From NCBI GenBank assembly GCA_029204225.1, contig CM055103.1, positions 44,092,604-44,156,603 of the forward strand: a stretch of 64,000 nucleotides of DNA. The letters are read 5' to 3'. This document shows positions 3,001 through 57,015 of the stretch, in pieces (position 1 is the stretch's first letter; each line of letters begins with the position of its first letter). The notes under the pieces are model-generated. The model saw only the letters and a list, made by a program, of their open reading frames with translations. It was not told where the DNA came from and did not search any database. The translations under genes were made by a program, and so were the position numbers. This stretch comes from Diphasiastrum complanatum (lineage: Eukaryota; Streptophyta; Lycopodiopsida; Lycopodiales; Lycopodiaceae).

Positions 3001-6000
3001 AGGATTATGTCCAAGAGTTTACGGAAGTCCTTACTCCTCTTGGGGGTGAATATCCACCCGACTTTCAGTTATTGAAATTCATTTTAGGCTTGCCCAAGGA
3101 CTATCAAATAGAAGTCCGAAGGAATAAGCCAAAGACTGTTGAAGAGGCAATTAAGTTTGCCAAGTTATATGATGAAGCTCCTCAGTTTTGTCGTGAGCAA
3201 TCTTCCACAAGTACATCTCCAAAGAAGAAACTTTTCAATAAGGGAAAGGAAAGAGAAAGCACTGCTGGAAATGTGGATGGTCACGCAAGGAAAAGGCCCA
3301 AAAGAACCTTCCGCATGTTGTAGGAGAAGGATTTTATTTTGGCTATCTCAAGGCTTGTGCTACTTATGCCAAGAAAAGGGTCATTTGGCAAAGGATTGCC
3401 CAAAGAAACGACCTTATAAATCTCCTACTACTGGTATGGTAGAGATTGTAGAAGAATGTTTTATAGGCAATGTTGCTTTTAGACCTCAAGATGTATTTGA
3501 AATCTATGGTTCTATCATTGGCACTAAAGTTAATGCATTATTTGACAGTGGAGCAACTCATGACTTTATTAATGCAAATGTCGTGCAGAACCTCAAGCTT
3601 CCCACAAACAGCCGGGATAGAACATATCGGGTGATTCTCGCAACTGGAGAACAGTCTCAGTTGTGGGATTTTACTATGCCTAAGTTCCCATTTGTATTCA
3701 TGGATACAAAGAAGATATAAATTTTCATGTGATGAAACATGACAGTGTAGATGTTATTTTGGGTCATGAATGGTTTTACGCCAAGAATGCTTCTCTAAAG
3801 ATAGACTTTGTGCATCATTTGATATCTTTTTAGCATGATGAATCCTTAATTGAACTTGAAGCTGGAAAAAATGTAGAAGATTTAATAAAAAGTGATGTTG
3901 TTTCCCTTTATCTTTGTGTGTGTAAAGATGTACAACTCTTGACTACCATGGATGAATCTCTCTTAACTCAAAATGTATTCTTGCACAGTACTAAAGTAGA
4001 GAAATTAAAGGAAGCTACTCTTGAATGGAAAGCTTTCCAAGAACTCTGAAAAGAGTTTGATGATGTGTTTCCAAAAGAATTTCCTAAAGGATTACCTCCC
4101 GCTCGTGGAGTTGATCAGAGGATAGAACTATTACCTGATACCTCTCATATTGCGCTAACCCTTATAGGCTTAGTCAAAAGGAAGAAGAAGAGATAGAAAG
4201 ACAGTTGAAGGAATACCTTCAACAAGAATTTTGTTAGGCCAAGCAAGTCTCCTTGGGGTGCACCGGTCCTTCTTGTTAATAAGAAAGATGGTGGCATGAG
4301 ACTTTGCGTAGATTATAAGAGACTTAACAAACGAACCATAAAGCACAAATATCCATTACCTAGAATGGATGATCTATACATTGATTGCATGGTGTAGTTT
4401 TCTTCACCAAAATCGACTTAAGATCAGGATACCATCATATACGTATCCGAAAAGAAGATATCCCTTTGACGGGATTCCGTATGATGAATGACCTTCTGAG
4501 GCCATATCTTGGAAAGTTTGTGGTTGTATTTTTAGATGATATACTTACTTATAGTAAGTCTCTAGAAGAACATGTGGAACACATACGAATTGTCTTGCAG
4601 TTGTTAAGACAAGCAAAGTTGTTTGCTAAGGAATCAAAATGTGATTTCTTTGCAACTAGACTTCTCTACTTAGGTCATCTCATCTCTGTACATGGTATAG
4701 AGATTAACTATGACAAGATCAGAGCTGTTATGGAATGGCCGATTCCACAAACAATTAGAGATGTCAAAATCTTTTTTTGGTTTTACTGGGTTTTTCAGAA
4801 AGCATATCCCTAAGTATGCGGAGTTAGCTTTTCCTCTAACCCAGGCTCTAAAGGGCATTAAGAAACTCAAAACAAAGAGCAAGATCAGTCCACCAATTAC
4901 TTGGACAGCAGAGATGAATTGAACTACTCAAAAGTTGTGTAACTTCTGCTCCAAGGTTGAGAATTGGTGATCCATCACGTCCTTTCATTGTAAAGACTGA
5001 TGCTAATGATCTTGCGATAGGTGTAGTATTGCTACAGGATGGACATCCGATAGCATATGAGAGCAAGAAGTTGAATCCTGCTCAAAGTAGATATTCTACT
5101 TATGAGAAGGAACTTTTTGCTATTATTCATGCACCTAAGATTTGGAGACACTACCTTTATGGTTCCAAATTTGAAGTGTATGCCGATCACCAGTCCTTGC
5201 TGTATTTCTGTGATGCCACAACAATAACGTGATTGACTGGTCCATCAACATAAGCCTTGAATCTCCTAGTATAATGGGCATTTGAATTTGCATATCGAAC
5301 AAAGTTCACAGCTCATGTCCTCACTTGGGGTACCCTTGTATTTACCTGTCTCGATCTGGAGGTGATGTGAAGGCACTCTCATTGGTCCCAAAGTGTAACT
5401 TGGGGCAATGATAAATGTTAGTTTGAATTGAAAGGCCTCCTTGGAGCTCGTAACTTTTACTGAAATGTAACATATAGACATATTCAAGATTCAAGTTGTG
5501 ATTGCAATGCTTCCCGGTTCACCTTTGTTTCACATCTCTACATAGTATATCAAAGAAATACTCGTAACCCTAGGAAAACACACTACTAAAACGGTACTTC
5601 ACCAGCATGCCTGGTTCAGAAATTCCAAACCGAACAAAATTTATGGCAGCTTAGTCCAGATATATGAGTTGCAGAAGCTCCCAAAACCCTGCTAGTAGCT
5701 TAAGGAAACAACAGTTGGGCGTTGGAAATTGAAAGCATTCAAGTCACATCAAAGCATGAAAGAGGATGCCAGAAAATTCACAACTAAAGATCATCTCGAA
5801 ACACCCAAATTTTGTACACAAACAACGATCACTACCAGCTTCTAATCTCCGACAGCAGAAAATCATGTAAATCACCTTTGGAAGGCTTCAATGCAGCTCC
5901 TGGATTGGCTTGACTGCGAGAAAGCAAGCCCCGTGCAATTGCCAAGTCGCGCAAGCGCTTGCTCACCTGATCTGCCTTCTTGTCCTCGGCACTCATCCCT

Positions 6001-9895: not shown

Positions 9896-12800
9896 ATGGC
9901 AGGATTAGGAGCAGCAGCAGGAGGTGGAGGCCTTTGTTGGATCCCAAATCATCAGCATCATCAACAAAATCAAGATCAAGGAGGTGCCCACTTCCTATTG
10001 TTTCTCCTGTTGCTGTTGATGCGCATCCTCCTTAAGTTGATTTATATAATTCAGTCCTCCCCCTCCATTTTGTGCCCATCACATCCCCTCACAATCAATC
10101 TCAGCAGCCTCCTTTAATCCTGTCTGTTGTGCAGGAGGCCAAGTACGGAGGACAAGACAATTTTGGAAGAAATTCTTCTCAGATCCTTCGCATTGGTGGG
10201 ACAATAGGACTGACAAGGTGATAAATCACTACCCTATCCATGGCATGCATTCATTCATTCATTCACTCCTTCATTCATGCAAAAGGTATATAATATGAGA
10301 AAGGATTTTGCTCTCAAGCTAGCACTGTACGATTTTGCTTTTTCAGGGCATGAGTGCTTTGCTTGCTTAGAATTGAGCTGGCAATCCAGTTTTCATATAG
10401 ATGGCTCAGCAGCTTGCCCAGCCTGCTTGATGATCGCAATGGACCCATCTAGTCCAAGACCTGAGATGATCTGCGATCATTCATTCTAGCACCTTGTGGA
10501 GCTTTGCGATCACAGTCTACTCTATTTCCAGAGTTGTGATCATTATAGTAGGTTTGCTTGAAGCTAGCTATGGCTGATGCTGCTGCTTTTCTTCAGAGAA
10601 ATCCAACTTTTCCGGACTTTGAACATAGGAGTACTGCAGAGAAGGCACTATGGACCGATAACAGGTTCAATCCTCCCTGGGCAAATACCAGGCTAACTAT
10701 CATGGTACAAGTTCAAGAACAGAGGAGATCCGGGTTTTCAACACCTGAAACCTTTGGTACGCTTCTTTTTTCTCATTGCCTGGCATTTTTTTTCTTCATC
10801 AGCCTTCCCTGACTGAGGAGAGAGGTGAATATGCAGACATGTTTACCCTGGCCACACTAAGATCCATTGACAATATTTCACCAATGTTATGATGCATGCA
10901 GGCAAAATAGTTGGAGTGGAACTGCTCTGGCACAAGTTTTTCTCAGATCCATCGCAATGGTGGGACAACAGATTCATTAAGGTGTGATCCTCCATCTGCC
11001 TTCACAAAGTCCCTTGAAAATGACTTGTAAAATGAGACCCAGAGAATGGTTTTGGACTGTTTATTTCAGGCTTCAGTTTCTTTGGGTAAGGCTTTTGTCT
11101 GGTGCCCACCTATGGTACATGAGGCTGATAGATTGGTTATTGTAGTGATTTTCCTAATTTATGCTCTTATGTCTGCTGATCTTCACCGTTACTGTTATGT
11201 AGAAAAGTCCAAAGTACCCGGACTTTGAATATAAGAGTACACACGAGGGTCTATGGCTTGAAGGGTGGCTGAATCCACCCTGGGTTAAAGTAAAGTTGGT
11301 CACTATGGCATTGAATGAAATACAATCTGATGGTGGATTGAGATCACGGTATGGTTTTAATCCTGGTGTGGACTGTGGAGCTCTAGGCTGAGAGCACATC
11401 TCTTTTTTATTGTTGGTCTTTCAGAATTTCCAGTGCAAAATTCTTTTTTGGTGATCATTATATCTTTCGCTGAGCAGGGTGCCTAATTTCGTGGGTTGTG
11501 GTGGGAATGTGAGCAAACTCTGTCAGGAGGGACGATTAAATGAGGCAGTGCATATGGTGGAACTTATGGCTCAGCAAAATTTCCGAGCTCCAATCAACAC
11601 CTATGTTTGCCTTTTGAAGGAGTGCACCAAAAGGAAAGCCCTGGCAGAGGGCAAGAGAGTGCATGCCCTCATGGTCCAAACAGGACTTGATTCTAACATT
11701 TTCCTAGGGAGCACCCTTATTAAAATGTATGCCAAGTGCGGTAATGTGCTGGATGCACGCGAAGTATTCGACTCAATGCCTGAACACAACGTGTTTTTAT
11801 GGACTACTATCATCTCAGCATATGTCAATCACGGACAAGCTGAGGAGGCTTTCAATCTTTTTCATAAAATGCAACAAACAGGCATACCACCCAACAATGT
11901 CACCTACGTTGTTCTCCTAAAAGCGTGTGCCAGCATTGCAGCCTTGGAACAGGGCAAGCAGCTCCATTCTGACATCATTAGAAATGGCTTTGAGTCGGAT
12001 GTGGTTGTAGGGAGTACCCTTGTTGACATGTATGCAAAATGTCGGCAAATAGAGGATGCACGCAAGGTGTTCAACAACATGCGTACTCGAAACCTGGTGT
12101 CATGGAATGCAATAATTGCTGGATATTCACGGCATGGGCTTGGCAAGGAGGCCCTTGATCTGTATGAGGAAATGAAAGAAGGTGTGCAGCCTGACATTGT
12201 CACATATGTTGTTATCCTAAAAGCTTGTGCCAGCATTGCAGCTCTGGAACAAGGCAAGCAGCTCCATTTGGACATTATCAGACGTGGTTTTGAGTCAGAT
12301 GTGATTGTAGGGAACACCCTGGTTGACATGTATGCAAAAGGCAGGTGCATACAGGATGCACGTCGGGTGTTTGACAATCTGCAAGAACGAGATGTTGTGT
12401 CATGGAGTGCAATTATTGCAGGATATGCAGAGCTGGGGCATGGCAAGGAGGCTCTTGATCTGTATGAGCAAATGAGACAGGAAGGTGTGCGCCCCAACAA
12501 TGTCACATATGTTGTACTCCTAAAAGCATGTGCCAGCATTGCAGCTCTGGAAAAGGGCAAGCAGCTCCATTTGGACATCATTGGAAGTGGCTTTGAGTTG
12601 GATGTGATTGTAGGGAGCACCCTTGTTGACATGTATGCAAAATGTGGGCGCATACAGGATGCGCGTCAGGTGTTCAACAACATGCATGGACGAGATGTGG
12701 TTTCTTGGAATGTGATGATTGCAGGATATGCACAGCAAGGGCTTGGCAAGGAGGCTCTCACACTTTTGGAGCAAATGCAAAGGGAAGGTATAAAGCCTGA

Positions 12801-13353
12801 TAAGGTGACCTATCTTAGTGTTCTATCTGCATGTAGCCATTCTGGCCTAGTAAATGAAGGTTGTCACCTCTTTGAGTCCATGTGTAAAGATCCTGGTGTC
12901 ACACCAACTATGGATCACTATGCCTGTATGGTAGATCTTCTGGGCCGTGCAGGGTTCCTGCCTGACGCCGAGGATCTCATTAGCAAAATGCCAATCGAGC
13001 CTAATGCTGTGGTTTGGATGACTTTGCTTAGTGCTGCTAGAAACCATAGCCATGTGGAAATAGGAAGACATGCCTTTGACTGTGTTTTGAAGTTGGAACC
13101 AGAAAATGCTGCAGCTCATGTGCTTCTATCAAATATCTATGCAGCAGCTGGCCAGAGGCGCGAGGTAGCAAAAATAAGAAAAGCAATGAATGATACAGGC
13201 ATGAAGAAGATGCCTGGGTGCAGCTGGACTGAAGTAGGCAACCAGGTGGATACCTCAGATGTAGGTAATACAACTCATCCACAAAGCAAGGAGATTGGAT
13301 CTGAACTGGCTACATTAGTGGGGACGATAGAGGAGGGCAGGCTATATGCCTAA
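9896..13353 (+). CDS. PDF-motif/PPR fusion protein, PLS class with E domains (six exons, 810 aa)
   Basis: Exons: 9896-9983, 10135-10217, 10597-10756, 10902-10981, 11203-11348, 11478-13353. All introns are GT-AG and phases (1,0,1,0,2) close exactly, giving 811 codons with the stop. Residues 1-29 are Gly/Ala then Gln/His-rich. PDF motif 1: WWDNRTDK at 50-57, PDF at 63-65, ALW at 74-76, NPPW at 82-85. PDF motif 2: WWDNRFIK at 130-137, PDF at 143-145, LW at 154-155, NPPW at 161-164. From about 187 a PLS-type PPR array runs to the E1/E2 region (LLSAARNHSHVEIG, LLSNIYAAAG, PGCSWTEV). PLS PPR proteins bind organellar RNA base by base; PDF motifs are known to me from OSB single-stranded DNA-binding proteins, so an organellar nucleic-acid role is inferred. 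An in-frame TAG just upstream fixes the ATG at 9896. The stop falls where a DYW domain would begin. Confidence 0.88.
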
Positions 13354-13604
13354 TTTGAGCGTTCGTGCTGCATGATAAAAGAAGACAAGGAGAAGGAAAA
13401 CGCATTGTGTGAACACAGTGAGAAGCTGGCCATTGCTTTTGGGCTAGACACCTATCTGAATCAATAAAAAATCTTTGGATATGAGTTGACTGTCACAATG
13501 CCACCAAGAACATCTTAATAATAGTCAGTTGCGAGTTCATTGCAAGGGATCTAAACCAATCCCATCACTTGATGGATGACTCTTGTTTCTGTGGGGACTA
13601 TTGT
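13354..13604 (+). pseudogene. Dead DYW deaminase domain downstream of the PDF-PPR stop
   Basis: After the TAA at 13351-13353 the same frame continues MIKEDKEKENALCEHSEKLA, the DYW-domain stretch with the zinc/catalytic HSE (codons at 13414-13422), until a second stop near 13464. After a frameshift the sequence reads NLWI, a TGA where the first Cys of the CxxC zinc motif belongs, then VDCHNATKNI (13485-13514), and finishes CEFIARDLNQSHHLMDDSCF followed by CGDY and Cys instead of Trp (TGT for TGG, to 13604). The full domain is therefore still readable but broken by two stops, a frameshift and loss of the terminal W. The domain performs C-to-U RNA editing in intact homologues. Confidence 0.88.
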
Positions 13605-19100: not shown

Positions 19101-22050
19101 TCATAGGAAATGGGACAACTTCAAGGCAAGAAGATTGTGACCCGTAGCTCTCTCAAGGCAATGGCTCATGCCAAAGCTAAGGATTCACGTGCTAATCTCC
19201 TATTTTGCATTATCTGTAGACATGCTTCACCCTTCTTCTTCAACCATACGGTTTCCCATGAATGTGACCTAGACATCTGCCTTCAAGAAACCAAATTGAG
19301 TGGCTTTCTCCTGGACGTTTTACTAAAACGTTTGCCCGCAACTTCAATTACTCCTGCACTCTTGCGGATGGCACTCGAGGCGGTTTAATGACCCTAGTTT
19401 CCAGAGATTGGAGGCTTGTTTCTCACTTCTCTCTTCTGGGAGGGCGTGTCAATGTCTATACTATTTCTAAATGTCGATTCTCTTTCAACATTTTTAACAT
19501 CTATGATCCAAACTCCCCCCTTCCTTGTGGGAGACTTTAATATGTACCTAAATCCTCTTGACGGTCCTAATCGCATCTCTTTTGCTGAAAGTCAGACTTG
19601 GGATTGCATGATGGACAATTTTTGCAGCTCTGATGTCGTATCTCTCTACGATTACCCGCGTCTCCATACTTGGACCAACGGTCGTTCATGTCATGCCCAC
19701 AACTAATCTTGGATTATTATCCTGTTAGGAGGTCAGTAATCCTACCTTGACCCGTGATTTAATTATGATTATGAGGGGTTTGGGGATCTCATGTGTATGT
19801 GGTCATAATTAATGGTTGGAGGCCTAAACTCAAGATGGTGGATTTTTACGGGTCTATTAGTGAGTCATAGGGGAACTAGATGGCATGGCCCAATTAGGCT
19901 GCAGATGTGTTCAGTGAGGTGTCACAGTGCACTACTAGTTTGTGCGTGGGCCTTGGAGGGTATAAGTATACCCATTGAGCTCTCACTAGTGTATGCTTAA
20001 TTGTGGTGCTAGTAGCTACATGCTGTTGGTATGACTCCTCTATCCCTTGTGAGTGATTGATCCATAGCTTGGGGGCTAGATCCGTTTGATCTAGGCTTGG
20101 TTGGGTTGGTTTGTCCACCATCGAATTCCCTTGTGTAGCTTTGTTGCGGCTTGCTTGGCTAGTTTATCCTTGGTGTAGGAGTTTATAGTTCCCCTCCCTT
20201 TTACACTTCAACTATTCGGCCAGTCTTATCTCCTCTTATACCATTCCCTCCCTCCCGCTGTCGGACCACCTCCATGTCAACCTTCATTTCAGGCTCTTCC
20301 CAGCCAAACTGTTTAAGCGGCAATTGGTCTATATCATGAACAACTCCTCGATCTAGAATAGAAACCTTTGTATTGCATCCTCCCATCTCGAATCCTCCCT
20401 GAAACAACTTCTCTTTTCTATTTTGCTTGATAGAGCCTATGCTACTGATCCTTCACTCCGAGCTGACGAATTTCTATCTGCTACTAATCGTCTTAAAATT
20501 CTTGATCATTCTAAGGTTGCCATTCTAAGGAAGAGAACCCATCTCAACTGGCTACGTGAAGCAGACCTGCCTTCTGCCTTCTTCCTTAGGAAACTCAAAG
20601 TTTCTCAACATCGTCCCTTTACAACCCCGTTATTCCTCCCAACTCTCCCAATTAGCACATTTCACTTTATTGTTCTTTTCCCTCTCGTTTATCCAATCCT
20701 GATGCCACCTCACTCTCTTCCCCTCTCACCCTTGAAGAGCTACACTAAAGCCCTCAAATCTCTTAAAATAGATAAAACTTCGGGCCTTGACGGAGTAACC
20801 CCTGACTTCTTCCGGGCGCACTGGAATCATGTTGGGCCCTCTTTATTATTAGCAACTAACTCTGCAATCTCATCGGGCTCCTTCCCTTCCTCCTCCTCCC
20901 AGGGACTCATCAAGCTCGTTCCTAAATCCGAGTCCCCTTCTAAGATCTTTGACTACCGCCCTCTTAGCATGCTTAATACTTCCTATAAGATGGTAGTGAA
21001 AGCCGTTGCTAGAAGGATTGCCCCTCTCCCCATCTCACCTATCCAAAAGCCAGTCTGGTTTTGTGAAAGGTAGATCCTTACTTGACAACATCTTGAATGT
21101 TTGGTCTGCCATTGACTCTTCTCTGTGGTTCAACTATCCGGCCTTGTTGTTTAAGATTGATTTTGACAAAGCTTTTGATCGCATCAGCTGGAACTACCTT
21201 CTCTCATGTTGCTCTTCCTTTGGCATCCTCGATTACATTATCAATCTTATTCGTGCTCTCTTCTCTTCAGCCAAGTCTTCCATCCTCTTCCAAGGGATCC
21301 TTTCACCCTCTTTCACTATTTCTTGTGGCATTAGACAAGGGTGTCCCCTTTCCCCTTATCTATTTGTTATTGCCACTGAGCCGCTCATTTTTCATCTTCA
21401 CAGACTTAATGCCTCTTCCTCCTTCCGCCCTTTTATCTTTAGTGATGTTCTCCTTGGACCTTAGTTCTTCGCTGATGAATTGGCCTGTGTTATTGAGCTC
21501 CACCAGCCTTTGGCTTCCATCCTGCTCCTTGAGCTCACGCGTTTTTGCATTTTCTCTGATTCGAAGATCAACTTGAAGAAATCTAATCTTATTGTTCTCT
21601 CCCATGAGGCTACCCCGGATTGGTGCCAGGATATAGGCCTTAATGTCCTCCAACATGGAACCATTTTCAGATATCTTGGTTTCCCCCTTGGGTGCTTCTC
21701 TTTCTAATAGAGACTGCTTTAATTGGATTATTGCGAGAATTAGATCCAAAATCCTTACTTGGAATTCTTTTGATCTTACCTTTCCTGCTAGATTCATAGT
21801 CCTCAAGCACATCATTTTTTCTTACTTCACCCCTTCCTCTTCATCTGATTTCTCCCTCCTTCCTACTCCCTTGAAATTGCCAAGACCTTTAGGAAATTTC
21901 TTTGGAATAATGGTCCCAGTTTGTTGAACTGGAATATCTGTTTGGCTCCTAAAAGGTTGGGCGGGCTGGGACTTCTCGACCCCTCTATCACTTCCCTCTC
22001 TCTTTTGTATAGGCGTATTCACTCTAACTTTGATTGTCCCCAGACTAAAT
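16100..22050 (+). mobile_element. Degraded L1-type LINE (ORF1-like, endonuclease, RT), interrupted by a solo LTR
   Basis: Plus-strand order: ORF1-like frames at 16126-16848 and about 17100-17390, including FCKLCSSLLQC (possible zinc knuckle); a poorly conserved middle; APE-type endonuclease with CDLDICLQETKLSG (19263-19304) and FLVGDFNMYLNPLDGPNR (from about 19521); then after the inserted LTR an RT with KIDKTSGLDGVTPDFFRAHW (about 20767), FKIDFDKAFDRISWNYL (about 21150), GIRQGCPLSPYLFVIATEPL (about 21330) and FRYLGFPLG (about 21670). The catalytic FADD box reads FFADE (21465-21479). The 3' end fades after NWNICLAPKRLGGLGLLDPS (about 21930-21985); no poly(A) tail was seen. Multiple stops and frameshifts make it non-functional. 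The 5' boundary is approximate. Confidence 0.85.
19689..20205. repeat. Solo LTR inside the LINE
   Basis: TGTCATGCCC at 19689 and TTTACA ending at 20205 bound a 517 bp block that interrupts the LINE endonuclease frame (HTWTNGRS before, the LSDHLHVNLHF frame after). Flanks GTTCA (19684-19688) and CTTCA (20206-20210) fit a 5 bp target duplication with one mismatch. A TATA-like GGGTATAAGTATACCC lies near 19958. No internal region remains, as expected for a solo LTR. Confidence 0.7.
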
Positions 22051-27414: not shown

Positions 27415-30400
27415 TTAATTATGCAACTGAACCCAGCTCTGCCGACCAATTTGTGAATGTGTTTTTGTTGTAGTTTCCTGAAAGATTGTTGTAGCATCTG
27501 CCTTGCCAGCAGCAGCATAAACGTTAGATAAAAGAACATAGCCTGGTGCATTTCCAGGGTCAAGTCTAAAGATATGCTCTGCTGCACGTTCACCCATTTG
27601 CACATTACCATAATTTCTGCAAGAACCCAGCAAGGTTACCCATAAAGAACTATCAGGTCTACACGGCATCTTCATGATAATGTCCTCTGCCTCAATAAGG
27701 CAGCCTGAACGAGCAAGGAGGTCAACCATGCAGCTGTAGTGCTCCATTGTTGCTTGAATGCCATACATTGGACTCATGGACTCAAAAAAGTAGCTGCCTT
27801 CATTGACTAGACCAGTATGACTAAATGCTGATAAAAGAGAAACGAAAATACCGGCATCTATATCTACATCTTCTTGGCACATTTTCTCAAAAAGCTGCTC
27901 GGCTTCATTGCCAAGCCCGTGAACTGCATATCCCATAATCATGGCACTCCAAGAGACGACATTGTGTGTGGGCATGTTGTTAAAGACTCTGCAAGCATCC
28001 ACTATGCTGCCACATTTAGAATACATGTCAACAAGGGAACTTCCAACAAACATGTCAGAGTCCAGCCCTTGCCGAATGACTTGCGCATGAACAAGCCTTC
28101 CTTCCTGAAAAGCAGCCTGACTGGCACATGCATTCAAAACTGCAACATAAGTTATGTTATCTGGCTCCACTTGTTCTTGCAGCATTTGCTGAAATGATTC
28201 CAAGGCCTTCTCTCCCTGACCAAACTTAACAAAACCCAGGATCATTGCACTCCATGTAATAACATCATGCACCCGAAACTTCTTGAACACTTTGTGTGCT
28301 TCATCAATACAACCACATTTAATGTACATGTCAACTAAGCAACTTCTGACAAAAATATTGGATTCAATCCCATTTTTGATAACTTGTGCATGGACAAGTT
28401 TTCCCTCCTCGAGTGCCTTAATGCTAGCACATGCCTTAAGAACTCCAACAAACGTGACTGTGTCCGGTTCTAACATATCTTGCTGCATATGCTGAAAAAG
28501 TTCTAGTGCTTTCCGCCCCTGCCCACACTTGGCATAACCCCCAAGCAAGGCACTCCAAGATACGACATTGCGTACGGGCATATTGTTAAACACTCGACAT
28601 GCGTCGTCTATGCTTCCACATTTAGCATACATATCAACAATAGAACTCCCTACAAAGACGTCCAATTCCAGCCCTTTTCTAATAATTTGTGCATGAACAA
28701 GCTTGCCCTCCTCAAGTGCCATCATACTTGCACATGCATTTAACACCCCGACAAAAGTGTTGACATTAGGTTCCACCCCTTCTTGTTGCATGTGTTGAAA
28801 TAATTCCAGTGCCTTCTCACCATGGCCGCAATTAACAAACCCTATAATCATTGCACTCCAAGAGACCACATCATGAACAGGCAGGTCATTAAAAACCTTA
28901 CAAGCATCTACAATTCTCCCACATTTTGTATACATGTCAACCAAGGAACTCCCAACATAGCTGTCAAATTGCAGCCCCATTGAAGTTACTTGCTCATGAA
29001 CAAGCTTACCATACTCCAGTGCTTCCAAACCACTGCAAGCATTCAGAACTCCTGAAAAAGTGAAAGCATCTGGTTCTATTTTTTCGTCCCGCATTTGGTC
29101 GTATAGTTCTAATGCCATGCGTGGCATCTCACATTTGACATACCCCATAATCATCGTATTCCAGGAAACAACGTCACGTGTGGGCATGCCACTAAATACT
29201 TTGTAAGCCTCCGCTATGCTCCCACATTTAGCATACATGTCAACCAGGCTATTTCCTACGAAGATATCTGAGTCCCAGCCAGTTTGAATTATTTGTGCAT
29301 GGGCGTCCCTTCCCTCTTCCAGTGCTGTCAGATTGGCGCACGCCTTAAGAATCGCAACAAAAGTGAAGTTATCTGGTTTTGCATCTTCTCTCTGCATGGT
29401 CTGAAAAAGTTCCATCGCCCTGATGTATTGGCGGTCGTTCACATACTTTATAATTCTCACATTCCAAGAAAAGGCACTTGATGGAATTGTACCTGGTGCC
29501 AGTGTAGATAACTCTGTGTTCACCCATTGAGGAGTTGATGGATTTTCTACCCAAAGCGCTTCCTGTGTCTGCTTGTGTTTGAAATCTGGGTACCTATCGT
29601 TTCTCTGGTTACATCAATCCAGACCCAGCTGATCAATCAGCTCACAGACGAGACTCTCCAGAGACAAACAGAAAGGAGTTACACTTCATGGGGGGAACTT
29701 CACCTTATTAGGTCTGTGATCCCACCAACTGGAAGGATCCGAAAATAACCGTCTCCAAAGTTTCTCTGTGCTTTTCTTTCTGACCTCTACACAGGAAAGC
29801 AAAGCTTTAAATCAGTATGATAAAGAAAGACAATACACGTGCTGAAGAATAGCTATGCACTTTCTAGCTTCTTTCGTCTCTTGTGTGTGTGTGTGTGTGT
29901 GTTTAGATAAAAAGAATATACATGCAACAAGAAAAGCAAGGGATCCATATTAAAACCATAGTATAGAACTCAAAAAATCAAAATCTTGTCCAGGCAGCAC
30001 TACTTTATGTCTCATCAGTACTCAAACATAAGTTGCTATCTGGGTTTGGAAAGAATCTGGATTCTCTAGCGTGGACCCAATGCTGGGTAAGAAGCAAACA
30101 ATCAACAAGAAAAACTTAAAAACAAAACGAAAAGAACCAAGAAAACTAAAAGCAAAATCAGGGAAGTTGATGAGTGTCCAATACATCGAAAGCCTCTCAG
30201 TGGTTTAAGTATACCGTCTCGATACGATGCCAAAAAGACGATTTAAATGCAAATACAATTCTTAGAACTCTAGATTACAGAGAAATGGATAACGCAACTG
30301 ATACTCCTAAGTGCATTATGCTGGTTAGAATCAGGAAAAATTCCAGTGAAATGGATAACACAACTGACATTCCTAATTGCATTATGCCGGTTACAATGAG

Positions 30401-30598
30401 AGAAAATTCAAGCTACTGAGCGCATAACATTTGCCAATGATACTTTTTCTGCTCAGAATCGCATGTTACTGACTAAAAAAGGAGGTAAAAGGGAAAAGAA
30501 GAAGTACCACTTCCAACAAGATGTGCTGTTGATGGTGAATATGTGGAAGACATGAATGGAGAACCCAAATGCGAGAAAAGGCGAGAGCAAGCAGCCAT
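27415..30598 (-). CDS. PDF-motif/PPR fusion protein, PLS class, E type (three exons, 787 aa)
   Basis: Exons on the minus strand: 30598-30508, 29786-29704, 29604-27415. Phases 1 and 0 close exactly with GT-AG introns, giving 788 codons with the stop. Residues 1-30 (MAACSRLFSHLGSPFMSS...) are Ser/Ala-rich with Arg and no acidic residue, a good organellar transit peptide. One PDF motif follows: KLWRRLFSDPSSWWDHRPNK ending at 58, PDF at 64-66, EALW at 73-76, W at 85. From about 104 come repeated PLS triplets of about 101 residues (LKACANLTALEEGRDAHAQI, SLVDMYAKCGSI, VVSWSAMI). The C-terminus has E1 (LLGSCRNYGNVQMGERAAEH, LLSNVYAAAGK) and a shortened E2 ending GRQSWVQLHN. No DYW domain. Exon 2 is 83 nt, the same as exon 2 of the other PDF-PPR gene. 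Likely binds organellar RNA; any editing would need a deaminase in trans. Confidence 0.9.
29882..29902. repeat. (TG)n microsatellite in intron 1 of the PDF-PPR gene
   Basis: About 21 bp of TG repeats within the 721 bp first intron (29787-30507). Confidence 0.85.
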
Positions 30599-33570: not shown

Positions 33571-34680
33571 GACCAGTACTTGCATAACCGGCTACCGTTG
33601 ATGGGCGTAGCAAAAGGTGTCCCACCCATTGTTTCTAAAGTCACTGCCCCTTGTGATAGGATGTCGATGATGCGATAAGGGCCTTCACCAGTGAACTTCA
33701 GCTTTCCTTTGATTGTCTTTGTCTTGTACATGAGGACCAAATCTCCTTTTTAAAGATCTTTCTTGTGAAGACGACGATAATGCCAAGCCTTGTGACGTGC
33801 TTTCTCTGCAGCAAGAGCATGGACCGCTAACAAGCATGTTTTGCACAACTTGTGTACCACTTTGTGACGAAGATGGAGTGATCTTGTATCATCCAATCGT
33901 TGCACTGTGGCAATGCGAAGAGATGGAACGAGAAATTCCATCGGCATGACTGCATCTTGGCCATACAGTAGTTGGAGTGGCGTTTGTTTGGTGCTACCTT
34001 TGTATGCAGTTCTGAAAGCCCACGAACAGCATGTAGTTTGTACTCCCAATCTGATCTGCTTGCTTCCACTGTCTTTGTCAAAATGCCACACAGAATCTTA
34101 TTAGAAGTTTCGGCTTGGCCATTGTCTCGCGGATAGTAAGGCGTGTTGAAACGGTGGCTCACAAAGAACTCTTCTAATAGGACCTTGATGGTCTCATTGA
34201 CAAAGTGAGTTTTTCGATCGCTAACTATCTCCAATGGGCATCCGAAGCGCACAATGATATTTTCATAATGGAATTTTGCGGTGGACCTAGCATCTGCTAC
34301 GCACACCACTTTTCATGGGGTAAAATACAAAGACGAATGATATTATCCGCCCCTCTCCGATATAGTTGGCTAGCAATCAGTTGATATGGACGAGCTTTAA
34401 GTACAAGTTTACGTTGTTGTGCCTTGGATAGTGACTGATCAAGTTGGTCATTCATCAAATACTCAACTATGTCTTCGGCTGAATATGGTACGACATCCAC
34501 GTAAAATAAAACAACATCTGGTAACTCATCATTAGGCTGGGGATCCTTCTCCGTTGATTTGATTCGTGATACATGATCCGCCTTATAATGTTGCTTGCCT
34601 TTGCATACCACTATTCAGAAATCAAACTCCAGCAACAAGAGTAACCATCTAGTGATTCTCCTTGTGTTGCAGGTTGTTAG
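33501..34680 (-). pseudogene. Ty3/gypsy RNase H tail and integrase, internally deleted
   Basis: Minus strand from right to left: RNase H end (TRWLLLLLEFDF, VCKGKQHYKADHVSRI near 34600), connection (LPDVVLFYVDVVPYS..DI), then directly integrase from ADARSTAKFHYENIIVRFGC, VSDRKTHF (second catalytic Asp), NGQAETSNKIL (catalytic Glu), and the C-terminal region (LYGQDAVMPMEFLVPSLRIA, KFTGEGPYRIIDI). The H2C2 zinc finger and the first catalytic Asp are missing because the sequence jumps from LPHEKW to ADARST. Same family as the pol at 47734-50190. Confidence 0.87.
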
Positions 34681-36459: not shown

Positions 36460-37215
36460 GAGATCTGAGAGTATCCGTTGGTCGAGTATTGACGCGAGGG
36501 TGTTGGTCGAGATCTGACGTGAGGTCGTTGGTCGAGATCTGACGCGAGGGCTTTTGACGCAAGGTCGTCGGTTGAGATGTCAATAGAAGGCGTCAGTTGA
36601 GATCTGACTATGGCCTCTGGTTGAGATTCGAGAGAAGTGCACCGGTTGAGATCTGACGGAAACGTGCCGGTTGAGATCTAACTGAACACTTCGGTTGAGA
36701 TGCGAGCAAGTGCTCCGGTTGAGATTTGAAAGAAGCACTTTGGTTGAGATTTGAAAGAAGTGCTTCGGTTGAGATCAGGACTGAAGGGTCCGGTTGAGAT
36801 CTAACTGAAGACTGCGGTTGAGATTCGAGAGAAGTGCACCGGTTGAGATCTAACTGAAGACTGCGGTTGAGATTCGAGAGAAGTGCACCGGTTGAGATCT
36901 GACATAAACGCGCAGGTTGAGATCTAATTGAACACTTCGGTTGAGATGCGAGCAAGTGTTCCGATTGAGATTTGAAAGAAACACTTCGGTTGAGATTTGA
37001 AAGAAGTGCTTCGGCTGAGATCAGGACTGAAGGGTCCGGTCGAGATCTAACTGAAGACTTTGGTCAAGATGTGAAGGAATACTTCGGTTGAGATCAGGAC
37101 TGAAGGGTCCGGTTGAGATTTGAAGATTTCCTTCGGTCGAGATGGCAAAGAGGTCTTCGGTCAAAATCTGGACATATGGCTCCGGTCGAGATTTGAAAGA
37201 AGAACTTCGGTTGAG
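36460..37215 (-). repeat. 24-26 bp minisatellite in gypsy leader (array 1)
   Basis: About 28 units of GGTTGAGAT(T/C)TGAA plus a variable 10-11 bp (AGAAGTGCTTC type) on the plus strand, so ATCTCAACCG in the sense of the minus-strand element. Neighbouring units form higher orders: a roughly 49 bp pair repeats near 36800-36900, and a block near 36650-36790 recurs near 36895-37045. It lies between the LTR A primer-binding site and gag. Confidence 0.88.
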
Positions 37216-45254: not shown

Positions 45255-45800
45255 GTTTTGTGTTTTGGTCCAGTTGAGATGGTGAGCAACTCCTTCGATC
45301 GAGATCGGACCATAACCTTCGGTCGAGATGTGATCGCTTCCTTCGGTCAAGATTTGATCGAAACCCTTCGGTCGAGATTTGATCGCTTCCTTCGGTCGAG
45401 ATTTGATTGAAACCCTTGGTCGAGATTTGATTGAAACCCTTCGGTCGAGATTTGATCGAAACCTCTCGGTCGAGACTTCAGCTACAGCCTCCGGTTGAGA
45501 TTTGAAAGATAGCTCTGGTTGAGATTTCACAGAGGGGCTCCGGTTGAGATTTTACAGAGGGGCTCCGGTTGAGATTTCACAGAGGGGCTCCAGTTGAGAT
45601 GTCACAGAGGGGCTCCGGTTGAGATGTCACAGAGGGGCTCCGGTTGAGATTTCACAAAGGGGCTCCGGTTGAGATTTCACATAGGGGATCCGGCTGAGAT
45701 TTCACAAGGGGCTTCGACTGAGATTTTATAGAGGGGCTCCGGTTGAGATTTCACAAGGGGCTCCGGTTGAGATGTCACAAAGGGGCTCCGGTGGAGACAT
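45255..45800 (-). repeat. 24-26 bp minisatellite (array 2)
   Basis: About 21 units: first GGTCGAGATTTGATCGAAACCCTTC types, then a homogenised run of GGTTGAGATTTCACAGAGG plus GGCTCC near 45505-45790. Element sense (minus) reads ATCTCAACCG. Positioned upstream of the gag at 44974-44173, as array 1 is upstream of its gag. Confidence 0.88.
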
Positions 45801-47733: not shown

Positions 47734-50700
47734 TCACGGCTCCATGGCTGAGGATATCCTTGCCTCTTTGATCGAAGATCCTTCCTTGCGTTGCTCTTTC
47801 TCAGCCACCAATGCATGCACAACTAGCAAGTGCATTTCGAAAAGTTGATGTAATCTTTCATGGCACAATTGTAGAGATTTGGATTCATCAAGACGTTGCG
47901 TTGTGGCAATTCTTAATGAAGGTACCAAAAACTCCACTGGCATTACTACATCCTGACCATAAACCAGCTGAAATGGCGTGTGATCAGTGCTTCCCTCCCT
48001 TCCCTTGTAAGCTGTTTTGAATGCCCACAGAGCAGCATGTAACTTGTGCTCCCAATCAGATATGCTAGCTTCAACGATTTTCGTGATCACGCCACGCAGG
48101 ATCTTATTGGGTGATTCAGCCTGACCATTATCGCGAGGATAATAAGATGTGCTAAACCTATGGATCACGAAGAATTCCTCCAACAGGACCTTGATGGTCT
48201 CATGGACGAAATGGCTTTCGTGATCGCTGACTATCTCCACTAGGCATCCAAAGCGCACAATGATATTTTCATCCCAGAACTTGGCTGAAGCATGAGCGTC
48301 AACTGTTCGCACTGCCTTGGCTTCGACCCACTTGGTGAGGTAATTAGTTGCCACGATAATATATCGGGCTTGTGAACTTCTTGTAGTAGGATGGGTAGGA
48401 CCAATATAGTCCAATCCCCACTTTTCAAATGGCGCTTAAGCTAGAACTGGGTGTAAAAGATCATAGTTCAACTGTGTTGGTCTCCTAGCTCTCAAGCACA
48501 CATGGCACTTCTTCAAGTATTCATCTATATCTTTATGAACCGTTGGCCACCAGCACCCAGATTGCAAGATCTTGCGAACTATAATGTCGGATGCAAAATG
48601 ACTTCATGTGAAATTGAAATAATCTGGGTGGTCTCGTGTGGAAGAACACACCTTCAAAGAATACTATTTGCTCCTCTTCAATACAATTGGTCGGCAATCA
48701 GTTGATAAGGGTCGACTAGCTTTTAGAATCTATTTTCGCTATTCCGCCTTGGGTAGAGATTTATCCAGTTGGCCCCACATAAGATACTCAACAATGTCAG
48801 CGGCCCATTCAGGTATAGTGTCAATGTAAAACAAGACAGTGTCTGGTAGCTCATCGTTGGGTAGGGCTGCAATTTTCTTCCCCTTGATAAGCGACACATG
48901 ATCTGCCATATAGTGTTGCTTCCCCTTGCGAACCACTATCCAAAAATCAAACTCCAACAACAAAAGTAACCAACGAGTGATTCTCCCTGTGTTGCAAGTT
49001 TTATTAACAAGATGAAGCAGGGGTTGATGGTCCGTATATAAAAATGTGTGGCCATCAAGTAATGTCAAAAATTTTTAACTGCATAGATCATAACCAATGC
49101 CTCCCACTCTGTGGTCAAGTAGTTTATCTATGAATCACTGAGCTGTCAGCTAGCAAATCAGATTGAAAAATCCTTGTTGTGTTCATCTGACTGGGTTAAA
49201 ACTGCTCTTACTGCATACTTCGATGCATCCGTATACACATGAAATTCTATGGACCAATTGGGTGGGCGTAATATTGGCGCCAAGACCAATGCATCTTTAA
49301 GTTTCTGGAAAGCCCGTAGAGCTTCCTTTGTCCAATGCGGTTCCATTGTGAGCTTGTAGATTGGTCGTGCTAACTCCACAAAATCTAGAATGAAAATACG
49401 GTAGTAGTTAGCGTGACCCATAAAAATATAGACTCTACAGATCATTCCTGGTGGTGGCAGATCAACAATGATCCTTATCTTTGACAAATCTGTGGCGATC
49501 CCGTGTCTGAATATTATATGGCCAAGAATGAGGCCATGTGACACCCAAAACTGACACTTTTCTGGGTTCAAAGATATCTGATATTCATGGCATTTCTTCA
49601 GCACCTTTTCCAAATTGGATAAGTGCTCAGAGTTAGGTCCGTGCACGCACAGATCATCCAAGAAATTCTCCAAATTTTTTTGCAAATATTCTTTGAATGC
49701 CACCTACATAACTCGTTGAAAGGTACTTGGGACATTACAAAGTCCAAATGGCATCACCTTGTAGGCATAGGTTCTCCATTCCGTGGCAAATGTTGTCTTG
49801 TGCGATCGTCGACGCTACGTTGAAATTGTCCAGGTAACTGTAGGCTTTTGCTCCTGCTACTCTGTCCAGAACGCTTTCCATAAATGGTAAGAGAAAATGA
49901 CCCTTCTTGGTGACTACATTTAACGCTTTCAGGTTCACACAAATTCGTATTTTGTCGTTCTTCTTGGGTACTATGACTATCGATGATACCCATTTAGTGT
50001 GCTCGATTTCATAGATGAAATCGGCATCAAACAATTTCTGCAACTCCTGCTTGATCAATTTTGTATAGTTAGGATTGCAGCAATAGTAACAGCTCACCTT
50101 GGGGACTACTCCATCCACCAAGGGTATGGTATGCGCTGAACTACGGCTAGTGGTATACCCTTTAGATCGTTGTAATTCCAGGCGAAGCAATCTTTGTATC
50201 CCACCAATAATGTGCGTAGTCTTTTGAAATGGGTATCAATTGTTCTTCCACATGTACGATCTTCTCTTCTTCACCTGGCTCAACTAAATTCATAGGTTGT
50301 GTCCACAAAGGTCCTTCAAAGACTTGTTCCGCTGGTTCCTGATCTTGATCGAGTTTTCTTTGTGCTTGCGGCATCATGATTACTACATCGTCTAAAGTAT
50401 AGTTCTTGAAGATTTCTAGCATCTTGTGAACTGGTGTTCGATGAGATTCCTCCTTCAGCATATTGATCTTAGTCCGACTTGTAACCTTGGGTTTATTAGT
50501 CATCTGTGAGGAAGAAAATGAAGCTACATCTGGGTCCATTCGGACCGACTTAAAGGAGTCCAACACTTTCTTTTTTTTCTTTTCTGCCCATGTAGTTGGG
50601 TTCATCCTTGTTATCTTTCTTAGGAACTGGTGTGATATTTGCTTTGTGACTGTGAATATCAATATCCACCATATCTATGGCCTCTTCCAGTAGATCACTC

Positions 50701-53339: not shown

Positions 53340-53950
53340 CTAATGTGGATCAAGCATCGATCTTGAGATAAGACCAAGATTAGATCTATGCTTTGAGAAG
53401 GCACTTTTGCAAAGTGGATTTGTGAGAAGATCAGCAATACATGAAAATGTGTCGACGTGTTCCAAGTTGATTTCACCTCCAATGAGCTTTTCCCTTACAA
53501 AATGGTGTGCCACTTCTATATGCTTGCTTCTTGCATGAAAAATAGGACTGTTTGCAAGAGCTTGGGCTGATATGTTGTCACACTTAATCAAGGGAAGATC
53601 ATCCTCTTTGATGCACTTTAGCTCCATGATTAACCTCTTGATCCAAAGCACCTCTTTAGTTGTTGTAGTGAGTGCTTTGTACTCGGCCTCACAAGAAGAT
53701 AGAGATATGGTATCTTGCTTCTTTGAAGGCCAAGACACAAGGTTGCCTCCAAGAAAGATAGTATATGCATTAATGGACTTTCGATCCATTTTATCACTTG
53801 CAAAATCGGACTCCGAATAGCCAACAATGGTTAGATCTTCATTCTTGTACAATAAACCATAATCTTGAGTAGAAGATACATATCTTAGAACTCTCTTGGC
53901 CATCTTCCAATGTTGGATCTTAGGATCTTGCATAAATTGACTCAATTGGC
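53340..53950 (-). pseudogene. Ty1/copia RNase H (C-terminal pol)
   Basis: Minus frame: SQFMQDPKIQHWKMAKRVLR (from about 53940), YVSSTQDYGLLY, DRKSINAYTIFLGGNLVSW, SKKQDTISLSSCEAEYKAL, HIEVAHHFVREK and IADLLTNPL. Nearly uninterrupted, ending next to its polypurine tract and 3' LTR. RT and earlier domains have been replaced by a plus-strand gypsy fragment starting near 53925. Confidence 0.92.
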
Positions 53951-55435
53951 CTGTAAGACGGGACAAATAGCTCGATGGCTGCTGATTTTGGAGGAATTTA
54001 ATTTTCGTGTAGTTGTTCAGAAAGGGACCCAACATTTCATGGCGGACCACCTTTCCAGACTAGCAAGTGCTGAAAAAGCAACTGCACCAGTCAACGATGA
54101 TCTTCCTGATGCATGCCTTTTTCAGATCAATGCTACACCCTTATGAGCTGAGAAGATTACTCAGTTTCTCACAACAGGCAGACTAAAAGAAGGCCTGAGT
54201 ACAACGGAAAAAAAAAAATTCCTACTAAAAGCAGCACCCTTTTAGTTAATAGCGAAACAACTTTACAAAAGGGGCATTGACGACATTATTCGACGATGTT
54301 CTTATGAATCTGAGATACGACCGATAATATCTCAGGCTCATGAGGGCATTGGGGGTGGCCACTTTTTTGCTGAAGCCACAATGAAGATTATCCTTCGAGC
54401 AGGATTGTGGTGGCCATCTTTGTTTAAAGACATGTTTGTTGTCATTAAAGCGTGTGATGTCTGTCAATGAGCAAAGAAAAATACCAAAGTAGACTTCACG
54501 CCACTGACTCCCATTATAGAAGGCGAAGCCTTTCATAAGTGGGGGATTGACTTTGTTGGACCAATCAGTCCAGCAGCAAAACACACCCAAGCTCGCTACA
54601 TCCTCATAGCCACAGATTACGCCACTAAGTGGGTTGAGGCTTGAGCAACGAAGGACGCCAATGCAAAAACAGTCGCACGTTTTCTTTACGAAAACATTAT
54701 TACACATTTTGGCTGTCCCATAGAGCTAGTTAGTGACCGTGGCACGTATTTTTTAAATGTTGTCGTTGATAACCTCCTACGCCATTACCTTGTTGTTCAC
54801 AGAAAGAGTACACCGTACTACCCTAGATGTAATGGCCAGGCTAAATCAACTAACAAGACGATCTGTAAATTTTGACTAAGATAGTTGAAACTAGTCGTTC
54901 TGATTGGGAAACAAAACTTTTCTCAACTGTTTGGGCTTACCGCACCACCCCGAAGAAAGCCACTGGGTGGGTTACCCCTTTCCACTTAGTATATGGTCAA
55001 GATGCGATAATGCCAGTAGAATTCTCAGTCCCATCATTATGAGTCGTGGAAGCTTTTTCAACAGATCTCTGTGAAAAAGCTACAATCGAACAACAACTCC
55101 AACCCAGGCTATTTACGTTAGCCCAGTTATGCGAGACGAGACTAATATCTTATCACACACAACTAGTTAACAAACGATGCCAAAAGGCCTGGCATGACCG
55201 TCACCTGCGCAATAAAGATCTACACTTAGGTGACCAGGTGCTTCTTTATACATCAAAGAAGCACCCCGACAAATTGAAATTCATAAGTGAGGGGCCATAT
55301 GTTATTAATAAAATCTTTCCTAATGGTGCAGTCCAGTTGCAAACACTTGACGGGATACTCCTCGATGACACTGTCGTAAATGGTGGTTGTCTAAGGTGGT
55401 ATTACGAAGAGTTGTTCTTTGTTGACCCAATTTAA
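53925..55435 (+). pseudogene. Ty3/gypsy RNase H tail and integrase
   Basis: Plus frame: RNase H end ARWLLILEEFNFRVVVQKGT and HFMADHLSRLA; connection; integrase H2C2 finger (SQAHEGIGGGHF ... CDVCQ, 54330-54470); [20 protein letters not shown] (first catalytic Asp, about 54541); FGCPIELVSDRGTYF (second Asp); then NGQAKSTNK where Lys replaces the catalytic Glu (about 54835). After stops the C-terminal region includes LHLGDQVLLYTSKK, EGPYVINKIFPNGAVQLQTL and LRWYYEELF, ending at 55435. The Glu-to-Lys change and stops make it inactive. Confidence 0.9.
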
Positions 55436-55844: not shown

Positions 55845-56015
55845 TTCAAATCTCAACCGAAGTGCTTCAGTCACACCTCGACCGAAGCACTCAACTCAAA
55901 TTTCAACCGGAGCACTCAGCTCAAATTTCAACTGGAGTACTCAGCTCAAATCTCAACCGGAGCACTCAGTTCGAATCTCAACTGGAGCATTTCGTTCAAA
56001 TCTCGGCCAGATGAC
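55845..56015 (+). repeat. 24-26 bp minisatellite (array 3)
   Basis: About seven units of AAATCTCAACCG plus variable GAGCACTCAGTTC type sequence, plus strand. Downstream of integrase in the same plus-strand orientation. Confidence 0.85.
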
Positions 56016-56754
56016 CTAAATTCAAATTTCACGAACCGGCACGTCCCATCTCTCTCGTCCAAGAAGACGGCATCCATAAATGCCCTCACCACGACGCCAT
56101 TCGCACCTCAGCGAAGTGCGGACTCTAGCATTTTCTGGCGATGATCTGCTGGCAATTTCCTTGCTCCTGTGACTGATCTTGGCGCTTAGCTGTTCAATCC
56201 TTCTGTTATCGTCTTCACACCATCTCTACAGACTATCAACTACCATTGTTACTAATCCATTGGGAGCACCATCACTAAAACCTTACAACCTAACGTCGTC
56301 GGCAGAATACATCATATTACAAGTCTTCGCAAGCTGAGGGGTAGTGTCACGCGAGCACCCATCACGCTCCCATTACACTATTGAACATAATCAAAATCAA
56401 CATCACAAAACGTTAGTCTTCCGCCCAGTCCATTACTCACACATATCCACCTTCACAAAATCACCATCCTTGACAAACACCTCCACTTTCTGATATTCCA
56501 CTTTCCAGCCTTCTTGACCCCACCACCTCATTCTGTGCCCACCTTTTTTACATCATATTTTATTTGCCACCCACATTCCACACGGTTTTGTCTAACACAA
56601 CCCACACTCCACAACGTTCTCTCCAACACAACCCACTTCTACACACTTTTCATTCCAAACCCTCCATCTTTCACAACTCTTTTTCATACAGCATCGTACA
56701 TCCCTTCCCACACATATTCCAAACCCTTCTACACCGCCATTTTTTTCCTTCAAA
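56016..56754. other. Pyrimidine-rich, ACCC/CACA-rich spacer between minisatellite arrays
   Basis: From about 56380 the plus strand is strongly A/C/T with few G (CACAACCCACACTCCACAAC style). No LTR boundary or gene was recognised. Confidence 0.4.
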
Positions 56755-57015
56755 ATCGACCGATGCCAGTCCTTCAGACTCGACCGAAGCCAGTCCTTCA
56801 CACTTGACCGGAACCACTCTTTCCATCTCAACCGGAGCACGTCCATCACTCTCGACCGACACCGTCTTTCAAATCTCAACCGACGCCAATCCTTCAAATC
56901 TCAACCGACACCGTCTTTCAAATCTCAACCAACGCCAATCCTTCAAATCTCAACCGACGCCAACCCACCAAATCTCAATCGAAGGCCTTCACACTGTCTG
57001 CACTCTCAACCGAAC
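56755..57015 (+). repeat. 24-26 bp minisatellite (array 4)
   Basis: About ten units mixing CTCGACCGAAGCCAGTCCTT and AAATCTCAACCGACGCCAAT types on the plus strand. It ends about 40 bp before the start codon of the next frame at 57054. Confidence 0.87.

Follow-up and report, generated by a model that had tools for sequence, protein, structure and literature searches.

Do the short exons upstream of a long PPR reading frame in Diphasiastrum complanatum, a lycophyte of the Lycopodiaceae, belong to the same gene, and what would they add to its product? The locus lies in a 64,000-nt stretch of genomic DNA, referred to here as the window, and the gene predicted at 9896-13353 corresponds to O6H91_12G080900 (deposited protein P0002). 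The initial annotation had read the upstream exons as coding for two copies of a PDF module and as splicing exactly into the PPR frame. Both points were borne out by the sequence. With predicted splicing of the window DNA, six exons (Table 1) gave 2433 nt, an open frame of 810 codons plus the stop with no internal stops, and two domains of the product were recognized by an OSB profile. All five introns, at the junctions originally named, are GT...AG, and the junction phases are 1, 0, 1, 0 and 2.

Table 1. Coordinates of the PDF-PPR genes and associated features in the window
Feature	Position	Strand	Description
Exon 1	9896-9983	+	N-terminus, residues 1-29 plus 1 nt; GT donor, open frame
Exon 2	10135-10217	+	83 nt, phases 1/0; 5' half of PDF module 1, from ~10161
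Exon 3	10597-10756	+	160 nt, phases 0/1; 3' half of PDF module 1, to ~10701
Exon 4	10902-10981	+	80 nt, phases 1/0; 5' half of PDF module 2, from ~10925
Exon 5	11203-11348	+	146 nt, phases 0/2; 3' half of PDF module 2, to ~11301, and linker
Exon 6	11478-13353	+	PLS-class PPR array, E motif at ~13045-13233, stop; Pfam matches, open frame
303-nt tandem repeat in exon 6	11890-12758	+	P-L-S triplet, 101 codons; 2.9 copies, 82% matches (Tandem Repeats Finder)
Decayed DYW remnant	13354-13601	+	Past the stop; more than one frame, in-frame stops; ends ...GDY; tblastn
Second PDF-PPR gene	27415-30598	-	Exons 30598-30508, 29786-29704 (83 nt) and 29604-27415; 787 aa, one PDF module

From residue 58 to its end, a length of 753 residues, the predicted protein is identical to P0002. 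P0002 itself opens with nine residues encoded by the final 27 nt of intron 2 (10570-10596); because its start falls within that intron, the deposited protein lacks exons 1 and 2. Exon 1 is backed by paralogues, as judged by eye: MAGLGAAAGGGGLCWIPNH in the window gene corresponds to MAAAGGRGGGIGLCWNPH in P0007, the two having a GGxGLCWxP stretch in common, and the exon more loosely resembles the N-termini of P0003 and P0013. Exons 2 and 3 together form a 243-nt cassette that is 1-1 symmetric, and because of these phases the unit could be gained or lost without a change of frame.

The initial annotation had also assigned the modules to the OSB-type PDF motif, and this assignment held. An HMM constructed solely from OSB sequences (25 PDF modules from 13 OSB-type proteins) matched the window protein at residues 39-92 (60.6 bits) and 119-170 (68.3 bits), and the whole protein matched with E 1e-38 at a search space of 70. 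Shuffled controls, in which the first 300 residues of every searched protein were composition-shuffled once, gave no matches to this HMM. A chance likeness to the OSB motif was ruled out by the OSB-only profile together with these controls. The two modules are 54% identical to one another over 56 columns (E 8e-23, two-sequence comparison). A Pfam scan of the window protein gave no match in the PDF part, no Pfam model matched any of 12 PDF modules, and an NCBIfam scan of P0008, P0002 and P0070 named no PDF family. AlphaFold modeled the module of P0077, a relative with a single PDF, as a compact helix-strand-strand-helix unit (block means of 80-96 over residues 51-110, in a whole model with pTM 0.46), and this module model found no match among solved structures. 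With neither a Pfam model nor a structural match to point to the modules, the fusion may have escaped notice.

The composition of the modules bears on whether they contact nucleic acid at all. They might instead serve protein contacts or oligomerization, for example as docking sites for OSB or editosome proteins. W, F and Y are abundant in both window modules (11 of 55 and 12 of 54 residues), which are only slightly basic (K+R of 9 and 8 against D+E of 7 and 6), and AtOSB2 is reported to be a tetramer (PMC6963530). However, an OSB2-like module has the same composition, and the PDF motif of OSB1 is reported to be sufficient by itself for binding ssDNA (PMC6963530). A role confined to protein contacts is considered distinctly improbable.

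Since the deposited model of the locus begins inside intron 2, the PDF exons could in principle represent a separate upstream gene that was joined to the PPR exon by prediction alone. A second PDF-PPR gene in the window, whose PDF was called by the OSB profile, speaks against this. Its 83-nt exon equals exon 2 of the first gene in length and its PDF is interrupted by an intron at the homologous phase-0 site; in both genes the modules are entered in phase 1 and split across two exons at this site. A single exon encodes the 3' half of its PDF together with the complete PPR array, and the fusion is thus independent of splice prediction. PDF is also joined to PPR in the JGI fragments P0077 and P0079, and an unbroken PDF followed by PPR is found in P0079 (939-nt contig) and P0069 (3090-nt contig). 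The order of PDF before PPR is, moreover, common to 67 deposited proteins. An exon-joining artefact was rejected for the family on the strength of the single exon in the second window gene, and for the first gene such an explanation can hardly be right.

The initial annotation had suggested looking for PDF modules in other PPR genes of ferns or lycophytes. A search with residues 30-190 found 69 proteins among 132 candidates: 67 from D. complanatum, one Kingdonia protein with multiple PDF modules and one Logan protein, P0069. The 67 Diphasiastrum proteins carry 64 locus tags, with two proteins at one locus and three at another, and some of these tags are on unplaced scaffolds and could be alleles. 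Each has one to three full PDF modules ahead of PPR repeats (one in 44, two in 18 and three in 5, by the OSB profile), and a further partial module is present in 11 of the 67. In their precomputed Pfam lists, inspected by eye, PPR domains are given for all 67 and PF00436 for none. The PDF-PPR fusion is therefore a large family rather than a single oddity. Even this number understates its size, as the search did not return the second window gene. Apart from P0077, that gene is the nearest relative of P0079 (50.6% over 178 residues, against 38-41% for the next rows), which indicates that its subfamily has members beyond the named matches. A search with residues 15-110 of P0069 recovered only P0069 itself among 45 candidates, which were limited to 0.55-1.75 times the query length and to proteins sharing exact 5-residue words, and so says little about other plants.

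Conservation across the family was assessed in 68 rows, which include isoforms and the window gene twice (as itself and as P0002). Mean pairwise identity was 0.755 for the PDF adjoining the PPR array and 0.700-0.762 for the first PPR motifs, and the linkers flanking this PDF were less conserved (0.442 before and 0.560 after it). Twenty positions of the PPR-adjacent PDF are the same in at least 65 of the 68 rows. Upstream PDFs, as a group, are conserved less strictly than the last ones. A module tree of 127 rows contains one cluster of all 29 upstream PDFs plus a single last PDF, that of P0037 (SH-aLRT 96), and another of the remaining 67 last PDFs (SH-aLRT 94); the tree rests on only 53 columns and 83 of its 117 inner branches are open. 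The separation of the two clusters suggests that the tandem duplication of the cassette seems to have preceded the expansion of the family. The P0069 module clusters with the OSB module of Marchantia, at an SH-aLRT of 84 that falls under the 95 mark, again over 53 columns.

The remainder of the window protein resembles known editing factors. Pfam models PF13041 and PF01535 matched 9 and 10 stretches, respectively, and 12 PPR motifs occur in a repeating L-S-P order. PF20431 (E_motif) matched residues 709-771 with 85.4 bits against a cut-off of 27.3. With P-L-S triplets and a C-terminal E motif, the predicted protein fits the E subclass of PLS-class PPR proteins. The triplet repeat in exon 6 (Table 1) is expected if the PPR array grew by triplet duplication. 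From the 12 motifs, the RNA core predicted for the protein is 5'-nAAnAUnUAnGU-3', as given by a crude motif reader and the PPR code. The same reader found at least 8 motifs in only 44 of the 67 family proteins, and these 44 have 42 distinct code strings; in P0008, in P0069 and in the second window gene it recognized only 4.

No DYW match was obtained for the window protein in Pfam, and an intact DYW deaminase domain is absent. The stop codon falls in the segment that precedes the DYW domain in relatives, and tblastn with the ends of 20 DYW paralogues as the query recovered a decayed DYW remnant beyond it (Table 1). Over 13467-13601 this remnant is 46.7-62.2% identical to the paralogues in the 13 of 20 comparisons listed, against a median of 83% among the 20 intact ends themselves (190 pairs, isoforms included). 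Twenty of the 67 family proteins, from 18 loci (three from one locus), end in DYW; an HxE motif is present in 19 of these ends (P0056 lacks the E) and CxxCH in all 20. We read the window gene as a former DYW protein that would now be of the E type, with selection on it perhaps somewhat relaxed.

This raises the question of whether the gene is decaying towards a pseudogene, in which case the fusion would still be real in the family and the other readings discussed here would still be compatible with it. Consistent with decay, the remnant past the stop changes frame, contains in-frame stops and has diverged well below the intact ends. The first PPR motifs of the window gene, at 67.5% mean identity to the family, are second lowest of 67 rows (median 73.8%). 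Its last PDF carries Y where H is shared by 65 of 68 rows, and the end branch of its upstream PDF is long (0.42, against a tree median of 0.11). Together, these three features suggest that the window copy may be under relaxed selection. However, all 810 codons are open and the five GT-AG introns are intact. The last PDF is ordinary, at 73.2% identity to the family (15th lowest, median 75.4%), and keeps 19 of the 20 conserved positions. Loss of the DYW end is, furthermore, common, as 47 of the 67 family proteins lack it. Ongoing decay is possible on these grounds, although doubtful.

What might such a protein do? The reading that we prefer, with a probability of about one half, is that the PLS-class PPR protein reads one particular transcript of an organelle and most likely serves as a specificity factor in RNA editing, and that the PDF modules, probably derived from OSB proteins, add a grip on single strands. 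The two N-terminal modules would have been taken long ago from an OSB-type gene, probably as an exon cassette, and would contribute a sequence-independent hold on single-stranded nucleic acid. The N-terminal repeats of a PPR array face the 5' side of the bound RNA and the C-terminal ones its 3' side, and the modules would consequently lie just upstream of the recognized site, where they may raise affinity or keep the RNA unfolded. The ancestor carried a DYW deaminase, a domain that the window copy has lost; if still working, this copy would need a DYW protein in trans. E-class factors use a DYW protein in this way. We infer that the family as a whole would act on particular sites in organellar RNA, mostly in C-to-U editing, and that PDF would give an extra single-strand grip on the 5' side.

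Several observations support parts of this preferred reading. Twelve positions (W, W, D, R, K, PDF, K, LW, P) conserved in at least 90% of 26 OSB modules are also conserved in at least 90% of the 67 last modules of the family, and nucleic-acid binding is therefore expected. Given the neighboring PPR array, RNA would be the likeliest ligand, with DNA tethering next. Retention of PDF through an expansion to at least 64 loci suggests that it does something useful. Other observations count against the reading. The reported PDF ligand is ssDNA and not RNA, and AlphaFold confidence was low across the PDF region of a two-PDF paralogue. In addition, the first 40 residues of the window protein contain 3 R and 0 K, with R at 34-37 in exon 2, and by this composition alone its N-terminus would appear to be a poor targeting signal. 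The comparison was made by eye on the first 40 residues of 11 proteins, among which the product of the second window gene begins with a stretch rich in Ser and Thr (12 of 40).

The PDF modules could alternatively have kept the ligand of OSB proteins, single-stranded organellar DNA, and tether the PPR protein to the nucleoid or to the DNA strand that transcription displaces, coupling editing or RNA handling to transcription or R-loops. This is suggested by the ssDNA binding of the OSB1 PDF cited above, by the report that OSB1 restricts R-loops in Arabidopsis mitochondria (PMC8330923) and by the 12 shared positions. A PDF-like motif found outside plants points the same way. Four viral contigs (L001-L004) encode a near-identical protein of 180 residues (96-100%) with a PDF-like C-terminus (L003 3001-3117), which scored 38.0 bits against the OSB profile (E 5.4e-8 at a search space of one million); the best of 5000 shuffles reached 15.8 bits. 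The gene lies next to ORFs with matches to the exonuclease and DnaB-like helicase families of phages, so that a PDF-like motif ends a small protein in a phage DNA-replication neighborhood. The finding hints at an origin of PDF before plants, or at an exchange, and at an affiliation with single-stranded DNA. The viral protein had no family match in PHROGs or Pfam, neither it (E up to 0.01) nor a single OSB module (E up to 1) matched an annotated phage record, and 11 pattern stretches in bacterial or archaeal genomes yielded no confirmed PDF. Against DNA tethering stands the SSB-like OB domain of OSB proteins (PF00436), which was not found in the window protein in a Pfam scan at E up to 1 or in the Pfam lists of its 67 relatives. 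Tethering to DNA is, on balance, rather unlikely.

In a more elaborate form, the family would be a class of editing factors of the Lycopodiaceae in which the PPR array holds nascent RNA and the PDF holds ssDNA of the same bubble or R-loop, with dozens of specificities. We regard this as a speculative and improbable proposal; if true, such a hold on RNA plus ssDNA would couple editing and genome maintenance in one protein. Designed PPR editors would gain a ready-made component if PDF increases the affinity for RNA or unfolds structured RNA; DNA binding by PDF would connect organellar RNA editing with the nucleoid. The fusion offers a natural test of PDF binding in which the OB domain is replaced by an RNA-reading array.

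Comparison with known systems shows both shared and distinct features. The PDF modules match a Marchantia protein named single-strand DNA-binding (P0070, 59%) and a Mercurialis protein named OSB2-like (P0078, 55%), each over ~40% of the query region, and OSBs and the PDF-PPR family both have one or several PDF copies. In OSBs, however, an SSB-like OB domain precedes PDF and there is no PPR as far as described, whereas the window protein has PDF first, PPR after and no OB domain found. With PLS-class editing factors of the E and DYW subclasses the family shares the P-L-S triplets, the E motif and, in the 20 relatives, the DYW end; unlike these factors, it has N-terminal PDF modules. Kingdonia uniflora P0001, a protein of 1160 aa, also has tandem PDF modules, 12 by the OSB profile, but no Pfam domain is listed for it, hence no PPR, and an OB-like segment is visible by eye. 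An overview of moss PPR proteins gives RRM, LAGLIDADG, SMR, NYN, CBS and SAP as additional domains, a list without PDF (PMC9459714). E+-class sites have been linked to DYW2 (PMC7076377), and PPR-DYW proteins of moss reportedly carry out editing in E. coli (PMC6397227). The initial annotation knew of no description of the architecture, and none turned up for PDF modules in PPR proteins when an open-licence full-text library was searched. Since PDF modules match no Pfam model, the architecture would be overlooked in further lycophytes and in ferns wherever annotation relies on Pfam.

The window contains further features. Two tRNA-family matches lie on the minus strand at 1716-1788 and 1976-2048, the first of which was also read as tRNA-Thr(GGT); these are possibly inserted organellar DNA. 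Broken ORFs at 3139-3720, 20423-21464, 33827-34309, 47734-50662 and 53340-54050 look, by eye, like pieces of retrotransposon gag, reverse transcriptase and integrase. A unit of ~25 bp around CGGTTGAGATTTGA forms tandem arrays at 36569-37215, 45291-45797, 55846-56004 and 56746-56958, and arrays of this type occur in both orientations, spread over 20 kb.
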